Positions 15,804 to 22,702 of a stretch of DNA of 64,000 nucleotides are shown piece after piece (the first letter of the stretch is position 1; each line of letters begins with the position of its first letter). The translations under genes and the position numbers were made by a program. The DNA is taken from contig NZ_JAEPRJ010000001.1 of assembly GCF_016651435.1 (NCBI RefSeq), positions 310,001 to 374,000 of the forward strand, given 5' to 3'. The notes under the pieces were generated by a model. It saw nothing but the letters and a program-made list of their open reading frames with translations. It was not told the DNA's origin and made no database searches. Source of the stretch: Catonella massiliensis (GTDB taxonomy: Bacteria; Bacillota; Clostridia; Lachnospirales; Lachnospiraceae).

Positions 15804-17772
15804 CGGGAGTTTGACACTTACTCATAACACCAAATTTAAATAATCCTTTATTTAAGCCAACTAAGGCTTATTTTTTTGTCAAATTTTTTCAAATTTTATG
15901 TGGCTATATGTGTCTATATATGATATAATGGGAGGTGGAGGTATGATACTATGAAACTTACAAAGTCTTCTTCAAAAAATTCAACTACATACTATGTTCA
16001 AAAGTCATATAGGATAGGTGATAAAACATCCACAAAGACAGTAGAACGCCTTGGCTCTATTGAAGAGCTAAAGGCTCGAGCGGGTGATAAGGATCCTATT
16101 GAATGGGCAAAGGAGTATGTTAAAAAACTTACCCTTTCTGAAAAAGAATCTAGGAAAGATATCACCGTTAAGTACTCCGGAAGCAGGCAGATTGATAAAA
16201 ATATCAGGAAATCTGTTAATGTGGGCTATCTTTTCCTAAAGAAGATTTACAACGAACTAAGGCTTCCTAAAGTAGTAGAGGAAATATCTGAGAAATATAA
16301 GATAACATATGACTTAGATGACATTTTTTCTTCCCTCCTTTATACAAGAATTCTTTCACCGTCTTCAAAGGAAGCTTCGTTCCACTATGCAGAAAATTTC
16401 CTGGAGAAGAGGAACTTTGACCTTCATCAGGTTTATCGTGCTCTTGAAGTTCTTGCAAAGGAAAATGACCTGATACAAAAAAAACTTTATGAAAACTCCA
16501 TGTCTGTTATAGAGAGAAATAAACATATCCTTTACTACGACTGTACTAACTTCTATTTTGAAACAGAGGAAGAAGATGGCTTTCGGAAATATGGCATCTC
16601 CAAAGAACACAGACCAAACCCTATTGTTCAGATGGGCTTGTTTATGGATGCTGACGGCATTCCACTTGCCTTCTCCATGTTTCCAGGCAACCAGAACGAA
16701 CAGCCGTCTCTTGCACCTTTAGAGAAGAAGATCATATCAGATTTCGGTATCGATAAACTTGTTGTATGTACTGACTCTGGTCTCTCGTCTGCACCAAACA
16801 GGAGATTCAATGATACAAAAAAGCGAAAGTTTATCACTACGCAGTCAATTAAAAAGTTAAAAGACTTCTTAAAAGAGTTCTGCCTTTCAGATGAGGGGTG
16901 GAGAAAGACAGGAAGTAAAAAAACTTACAGAATAAGTGAGCTTGATCCTGTAGAAGACTACCATACTACCTTCTATAAAGACAGGTGGATTAATGAAGAC
17001 GGCCTTGAACAGCATCTTATTATTACATTTTCTCTAAAATACCAGGCTTACCAGAGAAAAATACGAGGAAGACAGATTGAAAAAGCGAGCAGTTGTCTTG
17101 ACCACCCTTCAACCCTTACAAAAAGGTCCGCAAACGATTATAAACGCCTATTATCACAAGAGCATATCACAAGGCATGGGGAGATGGCAGAAAAATCCCT
17201 CATAAAGTTAGATATGAAGAAGATCGCTGAGGAAGAACTGTATGATGGCTTTTATGCTGTATGTACAAACCTTGAAGACAATGCAGAATCTATCGTTAGA
17301 ATCAACCACAAGCGCTGGGAAATCGAAGAGTGCTTTCGTATTATGAAAACCGAATTTAAGGCAAGGCCTGTTTACCTCTCAAGAGAAGACAGAATTAAGG
17401 CTCATTTCCTAACTTGTTATGCTTCCCTTGTACTATATCGGATTCTGGAGAAGAGGCTTACAGCGCAGTCCCCTGAAGTAAGCTTTTCATGTCATGAGAT
17501 CATACAAACACTTAGAAATATGAACATGCTGGTATCTCTGGGTGATGGATATATTCCCGTTTATGAAAGAACAGACCTTACAGATGCATTACATGAAATT
17601 TCAGGTTTCAGAACTGACTTAGAGATTGTGTCAAACAGAAATATGAAAAAAATTTTTACAAAGATGAAAAAAGAAGAAAAATAGCCACATTTTCTTGCAT
17701 ATATAAAGGCTCTAAAACCTAGATTATAAAATGGATTAGAGCCTTTTTGATTGTTACAAGTGTCAAAGATGG
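15804..17772. mobile_element. IS1634-family insertion sequence (about 1.97 kb)
   Basis: The element lies between the two 149-bp direct repeats. Its ends carry short imperfect inverted repeats: GGGAGTTTGACACTT at 15805-15819 and, on the minus strand at the right end, CCATCTTTGACACTT, sharing TTTGACACTT. One transposase gene fills it. The founding IS1634 is known for long target duplications of variable length, which matches what is seen. The exact ends are uncertain by a few bases. Confidence 0.85.
15951..17684 (+). CDS. IS1634-family transposase (DDE)
   Basis: A 577-aa intact transposase. The N-terminus (YYVQKSYRIGDKTSTKTVERLG) and the DDE core are typical: first Asp in YYDCTNFYFE near residue 200, second in VVCTDSGLSSAPN near 275, and the late Glu in RWEIEECFRIMKTEFKARPV near 470. 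It catalyses cut-and-paste of the element. GGAGG motifs precede the start. The gene is unbroken, so the element may still be active. Confidence 0.93.
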   Translation: MKLTKSSSKNSTTYYVQKSYRIGDKTSTKTVERLGSIEELKARAGDKDPIEWAKEYVKKLTLSEKESRKDITVKYSGSRQIDKNIRKSVNVGYLFLKKIYNELRLPKVVEEISEKYKITYDLDDIFSSLLYTRILSPSSKEASFHYAENFLEKRNFDLHQVYRALEVLAKENDLIQKKLYENSMSVIERNKHILYYDCTNFYFETEEEDGFRKYGISKEHRPNPIVQMGLFMDADGIPLAFSMFPGNQNEQPSLAPLEKKIISDFGIDKLVVCTDSGLSSAPNRRFNDTKKRKFITTQSIKKLKDFLKEFCLSDEGWRKTGSKKTYRISELDPVEDYHTTFYKDRWINEDGLEQHLIITFSLKYQAYQRKIRGRQIEKASSCLDHPSTLTKRSANDYKRLLSQEHITRHGEMAEKSLIKLDMKKIAEEELYDGFYAVCTNLEDNAESIVRINHKRWEIEECFRIMKTEFKARPVYLSREDRIKAHFLTCYASLVLYRILEKRLTAQSPEVSFSCHEIIQTLRNMNMLVSLGDGYIPVYERTDLTDALHEISGFRTDLEIVSNRNMKKIFTKMKKEEK

Positions 17773-17871: not shown

Positions 17872-17896
17872 GAAAAAAGAGCTCTAACCGAGCTCT
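17872..17896 (-). terminator. arsS terminator
   Basis: On the minus strand AGAGCTC-GGTTA-GAGCTCT is followed by a run of T. It stands just after the SECIS-like hairpin and is duplicated at 15754-15778. Confidence 0.8.
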
Positions 17897-17902
17897 ATAT
17901 AT

Positions 17903-17919
17903 AAGTGGCACCGCCACTT
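17903..17919 (-). promoter_or_regulatory. SECIS-like hairpin after the in-frame UGA of arsS
   Basis: In the arsS mRNA a 17-base hairpin AAGUGGC-GGU-GCCACUU begins 14 bases after the UGA at 17936-17934. A 7-bp stem with G in the first two loop positions, and about 21 bases between UGA and loop, fit the known pattern of bacterial SECIS elements. A simple terminator role is less likely because a separate terminator with a T run follows. Confidence 0.7.
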
Positions 17920-18899
17920 TAGAGTGAACCACCTCAGCTGGAGCCTGCTCCTGCAGTACAGGCATAGCAGTGCTTATCTACCAGGATGGTTCTCTTTTTA
18001 TAAGGCTTTCCAAGCAAATCAAATATTGTCTTTTCAGGCTGTAAGCAGGGAAGACCAGCAGCAAGATTAAAGTCACAGTCGTATACCTTTCCATCATAGT
18101 CTACAGATAGCTGAAAACGGCACATTATAGACTTAGCGGCTTCAGGGTTAAAGGCTTCATACAGCTTCTTAAGGTAGCTCTCAAGATTGTGTGTCCTTGC
18201 GAGAAAGGCACCAAAGCGTCCTAAAGGATTGTTGTAGAGAGTATACAGGGAATTGAAACTAATACCAAAGTCAGCATCAAGCCTCTCCTTATACTCCTTT
18301 TCCATGGCTGTCTGGTCAGGTGGGAAGAAGGCTCCTGCAGGATTGTAGACAAGATTAAGCACAAGTCTTTCATCCCTTCCGTAACCAAGTTCATTGAGAC
18401 GCCTGAGAACAGTTATAGCCCTTTCAAATGCCATATCTCCCCTTACCCTATTCATCTCTGCAGCGCGGTAATAAGGGAGGGAACAGACTATTTCAACACA
18501 GTTTTTGGCAAAAAATTCAGGCAGGTCAGTATATCCCTCCTCCAAAAGTATCACAAGATTAGTGCGGACTATTACTTTTTTAGCAAATTTCGCAGCCTCT
18601 TCTACAAGATAGCGAAGATTAGGATTCATTTCAGGAGCACCACCGGTAATATCTATAGTAGATATATTCTGTTCTTTAGCATAGGTAAGGGCAGCATCCA
18701 TAACCTCCTTTGACATTTCCTCTGTCCTTGCAGGACTGCTTAGAACGTGGCAATGCTTACAGGCAAGATTGCACCTTCTTCCTATATTCATCTGAAGTAC
18801 ATCCAGCGAATCAGCTGTATGGAGACAGGATCTGTCTACGGTTTCTTTGAAATCAGGTACAGAAGTAATATCTGCAAAACTACGGATAATATCGTCCAT
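17919..18899 (-). CDS. arsS: ArsS-type radical SAM protein, probable selenoprotein (UGA recoded)
   Basis: A radical SAM enzyme with the cluster motif Cys43-x3-Cys47-x2-Cys50 (RRCNLACKHC) and a Cys-rich C-terminal region (MCRFQ, YDCDF, HCYACTAGAGSS). The plain frame stops at UGA (17936-17934) after 321 residues. The family normally continues there with Cys-Gly-Gly; here the codons after UGA read Gly-Gly-Ser-Leu and then UAA, giving 326 residues with selenocysteine at 322. A SECIS-like hairpin follows. ArsS acts in arsenosugar synthesis, and some members are known selenoproteins. AAAGGAG precedes the ATG. No selenium-insertion genes are in the window. Confidence 0.82.
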
Positions 18900-18934: not shown

Positions 18935-18967
18935 CTGTCATAACAGGCCCTTGGCTTATTATGACAG
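18935..18967 (-). terminator. Intercistronic hairpin upstream of arsS
   Basis: CTGTCATAA and TTATGACAG are 9-bp perfect arms; on the minus strand a TTCTTTTT run follows. It lies between the AhpD-like gene and arsS and would stop or attenuate transcripts entering arsS. Confidence 0.6.
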
Positions 18968-19095: not shown

Positions 19096-19434
19096 TTAGA
19101 ACTCGAGCTTCTCAACGATATTCTTAGCCTGTACACCATGTACAAGGGAAGCGCCGCCTCTTATAGCAGCTGCTACATGGATAGCTTCCATAATCTGCTC
19201 TTTATTCACACCTTTATTGAGGCAGTCATTGGTGTAAGCGTCTATGCAGTATGGACACTGAACTGTATGTGCTACTGCAAGTGCGATAAGAGACTTTTCT
19301 CTTGCGGTAAGAGCACCTTCTGCAAATACAGCATTGTAGTACTCGAAGAACTTCTCTCCTGCGTGAGTTGTAGGTGTTTCACCTGCTACCGAACCAAACT
19401 TTGCTAAATCTTCCGGATTGTAATAAGTTTCCAT
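19096..19434 (-). CDS. AhpD/carboxymuconolactone decarboxylase-like peroxidase, ArsS-associated type
   Basis: A 112-aa AhpD-fold protein with the redox motif Cys60-Pro-Tyr-Cys63 inside HTVQCPYCIDAYTNDCLNKG. The start is the ATG at 19434, five bases after GAGGAGG; an upstream in-frame ATG gives 11 extra residues that include the ribosome site. A subgroup of AhpD-like proteins is regularly found beside ArsS radical SAM genes, so it probably works in the same arsenic or redox chemistry. In this copy both positions are Cys, not Sec. Confidence 0.88.
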   Translation of the reverse strand: METYYNPEDLAKFGSVAGETPTTHAGEKFFEYYNAVFAEGALTAREKSLIALAVAHTVQCPYCIDAYTNDCLNKGVNKEQIMEAIHVAAAIRGGASLVHGVQAKNIVEKLEF

Positions 19435-19535
19435 AATAACCTCCTCATAATAATTTGATCGCATCATTTACTAAATATCAAGCCCTCTTAAATATGGCAA
19501 ATAAGAGGTCTATATACTATTGTGAATGATAGATT

Positions 19536-19973
19536 TTAGTTTTCCATCTCGTCTAAGATGTCTAGGGCAGTCCTAACAAAGCGGGGACAGGCTTCAAAGA
19601 GAATTCCGCTTTCAAATATCTTAGGAACATCCTCTGGCTTTGAGAAGTCTAAGCCTAGCAATTCTCTGCAAGAGCAATGGCTATGAGCCTTTTTGAACTT
19701 CTCTAAGAACTCAGCCCTCTTAGCGTTAAGTATATCCTTTTGTTCCTGTTGGTTCTCACCGGTATTGCCGTACTTCATACCAAGTACCAGCATTCCACCT
19801 ATAATTGCACCACAGGTTTCGCCCACACCAAGTCCTCCGCCAAAGGCTGAAGAGACTTTTATGGCATCTTCCTTTGACATACCAAGTCTGTCTGCCCACT
19901 CTCCCATAATAATCTGGGAACAGTCAACTCCGTTAATAAAGGAATTAGCTATCATTTCTTTGGTTAACTCCAT
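19536..19973 (-). CDS. C_GCAxxG_C_C family redox-type protein
   Basis: A 145-aa protein of the C_GCAxxG_C_C family. Conserved landmarks are DCSQ near residue 17-20, AFGGGLGVGETCGAIIGGMLVLG near 43-66, CSCRELLG near 100-107 and CPRFV near 129-133. These cysteines suggest a metal or disulfide role; the function is not established. The usual GCA before the first cysteine is not present. AAGGAGGG precedes the start. It lies on the same strand and 101 bases upstream of the AhpD-like gene, possibly in one unit with arsS. Confidence 0.87.
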   Translation of the reverse strand: MELTKEMIANSFINGVDCSQIIMGEWADRLGMSKEDAIKVSSAFGGGLGVGETCGAIIGGMLVLGMKYGNTGENQQEQKDILNAKRAEFLEKFKKAHSHCSCRELLGLDFSKPEDVPKIFESGILFEACPRFVRTALDILDEMEN

Positions 19974-20084: not shown

Positions 20085-20372
20085 TTAGTATCTTCTTTTA
20101 GGATTTTTTGGAAACCAACCTTTTTTAACCCTATCCTCCTGCTCAAAGAGTTCTCTTATACTCCATAGACAGGAAATACCAAAGACTGCAATCAGGGAAC
20201 TGATGACAGGACTACTTATAAATAATGAGATGAAGAGAGAAGCAATTCCTGTAGCTAAGAACAGAGGCCAGATTTTCTTTGAAAAATAATACTCCCCCTT
20301 TACTACAATGACGTGAAAAACTCCAATGAGCAAAAAAGTAGCTACACCGAGAATTAGACCTGAATAATTCAT
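20085..20372 (-). CDS. DUF4491 small membrane protein
   Basis: A 95-aa protein with three hydrophobic spans and the well-conserved end CLWSIRELFEQEDRVKKGWF, diagnostic for DUF4491. The ATG at 20372 follows TGGAGGA; the frame is open four codons further up. Function unknown. It may head the minus-strand unit leading to arsS. Confidence 0.87.
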   Translation of the reverse strand: MNYSGLILGVATFLLIGVFHVIVVKGEYYFSKKIWPLFLATGIASLFISLFISSPVISSLIAVFGISCLWSIRELFEQEDRVKKGWFPKNPKRRY

Positions 20373-20621
20373 GTTATCCTCCATAAACTAAGTTTACATA
20401 TATTGATGGCTCGACTTCGCTAAGTGCTTAGATATCACTCGCACTAAACTAACACTTCACCTGACGTCTCGTATTCATTAAGTGCTCAAATTATATCATA
20501 ATAACCCATAAATTAACAGTATGTTTATTTGGTGATGTTTTGTCAAGAATATTATTATATGGAAAAATATAACACAGAAAGCGTAGATTAGAATAGAACA
20601 CATAAAAGACGAAAAAAAGAC

Positions 20622-20983: not shown

Positions 20984-22702
20984 ATGAATTTCAAGAAAAC
21001 AATCGCAAAGTCACTCGTTGTAGCAATGGCATTAGGTATGGTGCCTGTAGCTAACTTACAGACAGCTAAGGCTGCTGCTACTTTTACTTTCAAAGGTACT
21101 GAAGGAACCGCAACTGTTAATGGTGCGAAGTTCTGGGGTATTGCTAAGGAAGATAAGAAAGGCGGCAAGGACAGCGTAGAAATCGGTGGCAAGAAATATA
21201 AGATAACAAATGTACAGGATATCGCTGGTATGATAGATGTATATGCTGCCCTTAAGGGTAAGGCTGGTATTATAGCAGCTGGTGATACACCTACTCCTGA
21301 CAGCAACTGGAATGTACTTTCACTTGATGCAGCTGATAACACTTTCAAGGTGCAGTTTGTAGCTAGTACAAGTGCTGTAAAGGGTACAAAACCAGCAAAT
21401 GCATTAGGTGGTGAATTTGGATATCTTTTTGCTACTAAGGGTAAGAAAGGTGCTGAGGAAGAAGTTAACTTAAAGACTGATGCTGAAAAAGTTGAAGTTA
21501 AGTTGAATGATGGTAACTGGCAGACATTTAAGGCATTTATTGGAGGAGAGCCATCTGCGGACACTGTAAATACAAAGCTTAGGGCTCTTGGTCAGAGTGG
21601 TTCTTCACTTTCTTTCAGAATAATGGGAACAAATACTGCTTGGGCTAGTAAAGAGTCTAAGTTAAAAATTGCTACACAGGGCAATGCTCCTGCTGCAAAG
21701 GTAGATGTAACCAAAGAGACTACAAGCATTAAAAACGGTGTAGAATGGCAGGTAGTTGAGGCAGGTGCAGCTGCTGATGCAACTAAGTGGAAGTTATCTA
21801 CAAGCAAGAAGGGACTTACCTTAGATGAACTTAAATTAGATGCAACTAAGGATCAGGATTTACTTGTAAGAACTGGCGCTACTGCTAAGAAGATTGCTTC
21901 TAAGGTTGGCAGAGTGACTCTTAAGAAACCTGAGAGTGCTTTAACTGTTGGTACAAGTAACGAGATAACAGGAACGGGTGCTGCTATCAATGTTGGTGGG
22001 AAGACTGGTGTTATCGTTAGCTCAACTCTTGCTTATGACATTACAAAGGGTCTTTTACTTCAGAACGTAAGCAACAAGGACATTGAGTATGCTTTAGTTC
22101 CTTCAACAGGTGACACATCTAAGTTTAAGTGGAGCGTACTTAAGGCTTCTAAGGATCCTGTAAAGAAACCTACCAAGGCTAACCTTAAGTATTCAAAGGA
22201 TGAGAAGGCTAATACCTGGACAGAAGGAAAGACTAAGCTCTTCTTAAGACTTTCAGGCGTTAAGCAGGATAAGAATGGTGTTGCAACCAGATCTGGTGTT
22301 TCTGCAGGTGCTATCATAAAGATTGCTAACATCGCACAGAATGTTACATTTGAGAGCGGAAGCTCAAGTGATACAGTTAAGTCTACAATCAACGCTTCTG
22401 CTACAACAGCAGCTATTCAGATTGCTACAGGAACTGCTGCAACCTTCACTATCAATGCTAAGGTTGATAAGGTTGTAAATCCTAAGGGTGGTTCACCTAA
22501 GGTTAAGGTTGTTAAGGCTTTACCAAAGGGCGTTACTTACAAAGTAGGTAAGGTTGACGGAGCTACAGGTAAGTTCACAATCACTGTAAACGTATCTAAT
22601 AAGGCATTTACAGGCGCTGAGATAAGTGCAGATGCTGAGTATGGTCTTACATATGAAGGCGCTAACAGCGGATTCAAGATTACCTTCGCTAAGAAGAACT
22701 AA
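20984..22702 (+). CDS. Probable abundant secreted or cell-surface (S-layer-like) protein
   Basis: A 572-aa protein with a classical signal peptide (about 1-31, cleavage after LQTAKA). The mature part is rich in Ala, Thr, Lys and Gly, almost cysteine-free, and made of beta-type segments with lysine repeats, for example DATKWKLSTSKKGLTLDELK and the C-terminal VKVVKALPKGVTYKVGKVDG. No SLH, sortase or other anchor is recognised. The strong ribosome site, biased codons, long leader and its own terminator suggest high expression. The S-layer idea is inference; the family is unknown to me. Confidence 0.75.
   Translation: MNFKKTIAKSLVVAMALGMVPVANLQTAKAAATFTFKGTEGTATVNGAKFWGIAKEDKKGGKDSVEIGGKKYKITNVQDIAGMIDVYAALKGKAGIIAAGDTPTPDSNWNVLSLDAADNTFKVQFVASTSAVKGTKPANALGGEFGYLFATKGKKGAEEEVNLKTDAEKVEVKLNDGNWQTFKAFIGGEPSADTVNTKLRALGQSGSSLSFRIMGTNTAWASKESKLKIATQGNAPAAKVDVTKETTSIKNGVEWQVVEAGAAADATKWKLSTSKKGLTLDELKLDATKDQDLLVRTGATAKKIASKVGRVTLKKPESALTVGTSNEITGTGAAINVGGKTGVIVSSTLAYDITKGLLLQNVSNKDIEYALVPSTGDTSKFKWSVLKASKDPVKKPTKANLKYSKDEKANTWTEGKTKLFLRLSGVKQDKNGVATRSGVSAGAIIKIANIAQNVTFESGSSSDTVKSTINASATTAAIQIATGTAATFTINAKVDKVVNPKGGSPKVKVVKALPKGVTYKVGKVDGATGKFTITVNVSNKAFTGAEISADAEYGLTYEGANSGFKITFAKKN

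Follow-up and report, generated by a model that had tools for sequence, protein, structure and literature searches.

Radical S-adenosylmethionine (SAM) enzymes of the TIGR04167 family (rSAM_SeCys) carry the name 'arsenosugar biosynthesis radical SAM (seleno)protein ArsS'. Two reviews include the family among the selenoproteins, one under the entry 'Radical SAM domain protein, GxxU', with AAR34688.1 as an example and a citation of Zhang and Gladyshev 2005 (PMC13188914), the other under TIGR04167 (PMC9312934). Here we describe a member of this family in a 64-kb stretch of Catonella massiliensis DNA (contig positions 310,001-374,000, hereafter the window; the Catonella genome comprises 3.12 Mb in 3 contigs and is 97.4% complete), whose gene contains an in-frame UGA very probably read as selenocysteine (Sec). 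The Catonella ArsS scores above the curated cut-off of TIGR04167 and has in common with this family the C-terminal Sec position, a CX3CX2C motif, the DUF3641 domain and a CTAGxGSS-C/U-G tail. Because selenoprotein listings already include the ArsS family, the novelty is modest; new here are a clade in the Lachnospiraceae compatible with one Cys-to-Sec switch, a predicted flexible Sec tail, and the lack of a convincing ArsM in the Catonella genome. The features of the gene and of its 3' end, including the predicted selenocysteine insertion sequence (SECIS), are the following:

17919..18899, minus strand: radical SAM gene of the ArsS family, 326 codons and UAA when the UGA is read through
17934-18899, minus strand: frame of the ArsS gene under translation table 11, 321 codons, with ATG at 18899
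17934..17936, minus strand: in-frame UGA, codon 322, predicted Sec, aligned with the Cys and TGA codons of the family
17903..17919, minus strand: predicted SECIS hairpin with a 7-bp stem and a GGU loop (sequence, folding, chance control, covariation with Catonella morbi)
17878..17896, minus strand: intrinsic-terminator-like hairpin with a T run, separate from the SECIS (folding)
18750..18773, minus strand: CX3CX2C motif, codons 43-50 (C43, C47, C50), predicted SAM-cleaving cluster, invariant in 25 sequences
18075..18122, minus strand: C-X9-G-X4-C, codons 260-275, predicted auxiliary-cluster ligands, with C260, G270 and C275 invariant in 25 sequences
17958..17969, minus strand: C-X2-C, codons 311-314, predicted auxiliary-cluster ligands, with C311 and C314 invariant in 25 sequences

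By direct reading, the 321-codon frame ends in HCYACTAGAGSS, immediately 5' of the TGA at 17936-17934, which is followed by GGT GGT TCA CTC TAA (17933-17919), that is, Gly-Gly-Ser-Leu and UAA. An earlier note on this DNA, made from the letters alone, had described the frame, its in-frame UGA and this short extension in the same way, and had proposed that the UGA is read as Sec, adding five residues; the Sec machinery of the genome and the pairing of Cys and UGA codons within the family, both presented below, support this proposal. The 321-residue frame matches TIGR04167 with 413.4 bits (cut-off 300) up to model position 298 of 303, and in the whole-genome profile search the match runs past the TGA to model position 303, with 419.7 bits.

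One line of evidence comes from codon 322 across the family, for which we compared 82 members (the window, genome G009, and 80 loci kept of 438 found, some rows being identical or close). This codon is TGC in 40 members and TGT in 26 (Cys in 66 of 82), and TGA in the other 16, with no case of TAA, TAG or another residue among the 82. The alignment of homologues called for in the earlier note thus places Cys or TGA at residue 322 throughout, and includes no homologue ending there without the conserved Cys.

The Catonella genome also encodes the components that the earlier note had named for a search, selA, selB, selC and selD. SelB was found with 363.7 bits (cut-off 242.25), SelA with 600.1 and SelD with 361.9 bits, the genes of the last two adjoining selB, and tRNA-Sec with 60.8 bits (Rfam cut-off 47) and the anticodon TCA by ARAGORN, which assigned a second locus above the Rfam tRNA-Sec cut-off to tRNA-Ser. 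The genome's own selD has an in-frame TGA followed, at 32 nt, by a hairpin with a GGUUA loop, and its glycine/betaine/sarcosine reductase selenoprotein-B-type gene has a TGA followed at 18 nt by CGUUGC-GGU-GCAACG, which shares with the ArsS hairpin a GGU loop closed by C-G. The presence of selB hardly separates Sec from Cys forms and was discarded as a discriminator: it is above cut-off in 14 of 14 other TGA-form genomes and also in 30 of 35 genomes with a Cys form, a set covering 35 of the 65 Cys loci. The selenium genes lie in an island of about 28 kb (C1:1738000-1766000 of the same genome; L047, L048) holding selB, selA, selD, reductase-complex genes, YedF, a cysteine-desulfurase-family gene and tRNA-Sec.

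A further line of evidence is the hairpin 3' of the UGA, AAGTGGC-GGT-GCCACTT, which starts 14 nt and has its loop 21 nt past the TGA, its first A being the last A of the TAA. Reading and folding both bear out the earlier description of a 17-nt hairpin with a G at the start of its loop and a separate terminator behind it. In the section of PMC13188914 that gives constraints for bacterial SECIS elements, these are a loop of 3-9 nt, a stem of 4-16 bp, a G in loop position 1 or 2, a loop located 16-37 nt past the UGA, and a minimum free energy (MFE) of at most -7.5 kcal/mol (PMC13188914). The ArsS hairpin agrees with all of them (a GGU loop of 3 nt at a distance of 21 nt, a stem of 7 bp, and -8.1 to -9.1 kcal/mol). 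In a chance control over both strands of the window, perfect-stem hairpins within these constraints follow 17 of 2345 TGAs at -7.5 kcal/mol or lower and 12 of 2345 at -8.1 kcal/mol or lower, and four of these 12, the ArsS hairpin included, have a G(G)U loop no more than 24 nt from the TGA. Counted from stop to stop, ten frames in the window are 150 codons or longer and end in TGA, and ArsS is the sole one among them with a qualifying hairpin. When 38 nt from the TGA onward are folded, the hairpin is part of the minimum-energy structure, which has -11.8 kcal/mol (z -2.28, equalled by 7 of 200 shuffles), and in a 77-nt fold including the TGA it stands beside the separate terminator (-22.9 kcal/mol, z -2.66, 4 of 200 shuffles equal). 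A 52-nt fold including the TGA also keeps it, but with a z of only -0.93 (31 of 200 shuffles equal). The idea that the hairpin is itself the terminator was rejected, since a distinct terminator lies 3' of it.

Across the family, hairpins with a G[GU] loop have a median energy of -8.45 kcal/mol after TGA versus -0.05 kcal/mol after Cys codons, and reach -4 kcal/mol or lower in 13 of 16 TGA rows versus 15 of 66 Cys rows, although the rows in this comparison are related and the test values are therefore overstated. A MAFFT alignment of the hairpin stretches did not bring the loops into register and was not used. The closest comparison is with Catonella morbi ATCC 51271 (L051, L049/G003), whose ArsS is 84% identical, has TGA at the matching codon, ends in GGAL where the window has GGSL, and is likewise followed by a GGU-loop hairpin; the gene order at its locus, after an AhpD-like and a C_GCAxxG_C_C gene, matches that of the window. 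Between the two hairpins both sides are altered in three of seven stem pairs and one pair is broken, while the GGU loop is retained. A further genome of the same family Lachnospiraceae, G283, has the TGA followed by UAAGCA-GGC-UGCUUA.

On this basis we consider that the UGA at codon 322 of the Catonella ArsS is translated as Sec, with a probability of roughly 0.93. Several observations weigh against it. The hairpins of C. morbi and G283 are weak, at -3.5 and -4.4 kcal/mol, and the naked RNA has other structures as its minimum-energy folds; in the window itself, a 39-nt fold beginning right after the TGA favours a different pairing (-9.7 kcal/mol); and an Rfam scan of the hairpin region gave no match at E <= 1. 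A ribosome at the UGA would presumably mask the competing bases.

Two other readings of the UGA are to be weighed. In the first, which we regard as improbable, decoding is dual and forms a regulated switch, with Sec inserted if selenium is plentiful and the 321-residue form made if it is scarce. The natural end is only five codons beyond the UGA, and a protein that stops at the UGA retains both predicted cluster sites and could be stable, which suits such a switch; but some termination at Sec codons is normal and is to be expected here without any regulation. In the second, which we hold to be very unlikely, the UGA acts as a normal stop codon, giving a protein of 321 residues that lacks the last Cys or Sec, and the hairpin is incidental or serves mRNA stability. 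This would fit the weak hairpins in the two relatives, the alternative folds and the missing Rfam match, as well as the database gene calls, which end at the UGA but are expected to do so under either reading. It would leave unaccounted for the exclusive use of TGA or Cys codons at this position, the retention of TGA in C. morbi and G283 with hairpins that preserve the loop while the stems change, the complete Sec machinery, and the separate terminator 3' of the hairpin. That the UGA is read as an amino acid other than Sec was rejected, the residue of the family at this position being Cys.

With the UGA translated as Sec, SelB carrying the Sec-tRNA would bind the GGU-loop hairpin and deliver Sec to the UGA, giving a protein of 326 residues. 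The ArsS frame contains PF04055 and, in its C-terminal part, PF12345/DUF3641. C43, C47 and C50 would hold the SAM-cleaving cluster, and the DUF3641 part would form a Twitch-like domain in which C260, C275, C311 and C314 may bind one auxiliary [4Fe-4S] cluster. The Cys set of Twitch/SPASM proteins, CX(9-15)GX4C plus CX2C, has an equivalent in ArsS that is invariant in 25 sequences. Fold matches suggest that ArsS resembles Twitch/SPASM radical SAM enzymes (SkfB 6efn, BlsE 7vob, BtrN 4m7t) at 12-20% identity; a search by sequence found no solved structure of ArsS itself. In contrast to SkfB, BlsE and BtrN, ArsS has an extra Cys or Sec at its C-terminus, on a tail predicted to be flexible, which in the Catonella protein is rich in glycine and would bear Sec322. 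The selenolate of Sec322 could bind the substrate or reset the redox state of the enzyme, and the substrate would be a trivalent arsenical if the family name applies here. In this role Sec322 would probably act jointly with the protein encoded by the neighbouring AhpD-like gene.

Database annotation mostly stops short of this residue. Among the best 120 of 7996 database proteins, 118 by pattern terminate exactly at ...GSS, before residue 322, a pattern that agrees with the expectation in the earlier note that automatic gene calls would truncate the protein; of the remaining two, one stops at this point too but with a Cys altered, and the other carries a different tail. Three of the 120 lack a source mark, and these may be the protein of the window itself or near copies of it; one, from Dorea amylophila, is named '(seleno)protein ArsS' by NCBI. 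The present analysis adds a well-supported selenoprotein gene where database calls stop one residue before the likely catalytic residue.

Trees were built from 44 and 37 chosen rows, a subset of those available. The window, C. morbi, G283 and the ...GSS-ending proteins (14 and 8 rows in the two trees, counted as Sec from their protein ends alone, with the DNA unseen) form one clade (support 100/98), nested among Cys forms, and the sister of this clade is the Cys form of G009. The grouping fits a single Cys-to-Sec switch in the ArsS of a Lachnospiraceae clade comprising Catonella and relatives, the direction of which rests on the nesting, because the root of the tree is unproven. The 82-row tree has a minimum of 7 changes, at least 6 of them forced by well-supported branches, and had pointed to an isolated event in the Catonella pair; this was replaced by the wider event because a larger set of ...GSS-ending proteins grouped with the window in the later trees. 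ArsS was found in 2 of 5 species genomes of the genus Catonella, both with TGA, and in 12 of 299 genomes of a Lachnospiraceae sample, 2 of the 12 with TGA; a search with another query found it in 14 of 397. With its Cys sister G009 beside it, the Sec clade offers a tractable case for the origin of a SECIS hairpin.

The function assigned to the family is less secure in this organism. Synechocystis ArsS and ArsM are described as acting together in the initial steps of the arsenosugar pathway (PMC8552651), and adenosylation of arsenic has been described for a radical SAM enzyme (PMC12159101). An arsenosugar role of the ArsS family is plausible. The TIGR04167 system is usually partnered by ArsM, which would supply the methylarsenical substrate, whereas no ArsM at E <= 1e-30 is present in the Catonella genome or in C. 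morbi, the best matches (1.0e-10 and 2.0e-10) being far under the cut-off, and 'arsenosugar biosynthesis' therefore stays putative in Catonella. Of 17 Lachnospiraceae genomes with ArsS, only three (G009, G216, G414) have ArsM, and this usual lack of ArsM (14 of 17) makes the assigned function of ArsS directly testable. It is a trait of the Lachnospiraceae and not of Sec forms in general, a possibility that was rejected because 11 of 15 Sec-form genomes have ArsM. Overall, ArsM is present in 27 of the 52 ArsS-bearing genomes examined. In G009 ArsM adjoins the AhpD-like gene and ArsS, and ArsM occurs in the neighbourhood of ArsS in at least 15 of 83 sequences, a lower bound, as the set of seven ArsM seeds included one or two frames that were a poor choice.

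We see about an even chance that the Catonella ArsS makes adenosylated arsenicals from methylarsenicals supplied by neighbours, the cell having no ArsM of its own. The equivalog-level match to TIGR04167, the two literature reports above, the frequency of ArsM in ArsS-bearing and Sec-form genomes and its position beside ArsS in G009 all favour this function; the failure to find ArsM in either Catonella species, and its scarcity in ArsS-bearing Lachnospiraceae, argue against it. A more speculative proposal, which we hold only tentatively and consider rather unlikely, is that the ArsS of a Lachnospiraceae clade (Catonella and relatives) underwent one swap of Cys for Sec, with a SECIS newly built across the stop codon, and is used without an arsenite methyltransferase on a true substrate other than methylated arsenic. 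In nine loci from ArsS-bearing genomes (L132, L133, L135, L136, L138, L143-L146), the ArsM-family match contains one internal TGA, in agreement with one of the two reviews (PMC13188914, PMC9312934), which counts arsenite methyltransferase among the selenoprotein families.

Two further genes lie upstream of ArsS on the same strand:

19096..19467, minus strand: AhpD-like 'arsenosugar biosynthesis-associated peroxidase-like' gene with CPYC and no UGA (TIGR04169, 180.8 bits, cut-off 120)
19536..19973, minus strand: C-GCAxxG-C-C family gene (TIGR01909, 67.8 bits, cut-off 47.4)

An AhpD-like gene is close to ArsS in 63 of the 82 loci (62 with CPYC, 1 partial) and a C_GCAxxG_C_C gene in 30 of 82, in counts that include two loci from a single genome (L049 and L051) and some truncated loci. 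In one database protein of 406 residues (P0034) the C_GCAxxG_C_C domain is fused to the ArsS domains, which would support a functional link between the two unless it is a gene-calling error. Between the AhpD-like gene and ArsS there is a strong stem-loop (18935-18967, minus strand; z -4.68 for a 56-nt fold, equalled by none of 200 shuffles), with a comparable stem at the equivalent place in C. morbi (L051 4929-4962) and a 15-nt arm that is single-copy in both genomes; it is possibly an attenuator or an mRNA-stability element. On the other side, an IS1634-family transposase gene (15951-17684, plus strand; 374.6 bits, cut-off 100) is convergent with ArsS, its end being roughly 200 bases away from the ArsS terminator; a search of this gene for terminal inverted repeats found no clear ones. 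Upstream of the ArsS gene group lie genes for a DUF4491 protein (20085-20384) and for a 572-residue protein with no Pfam match (20984-22702).
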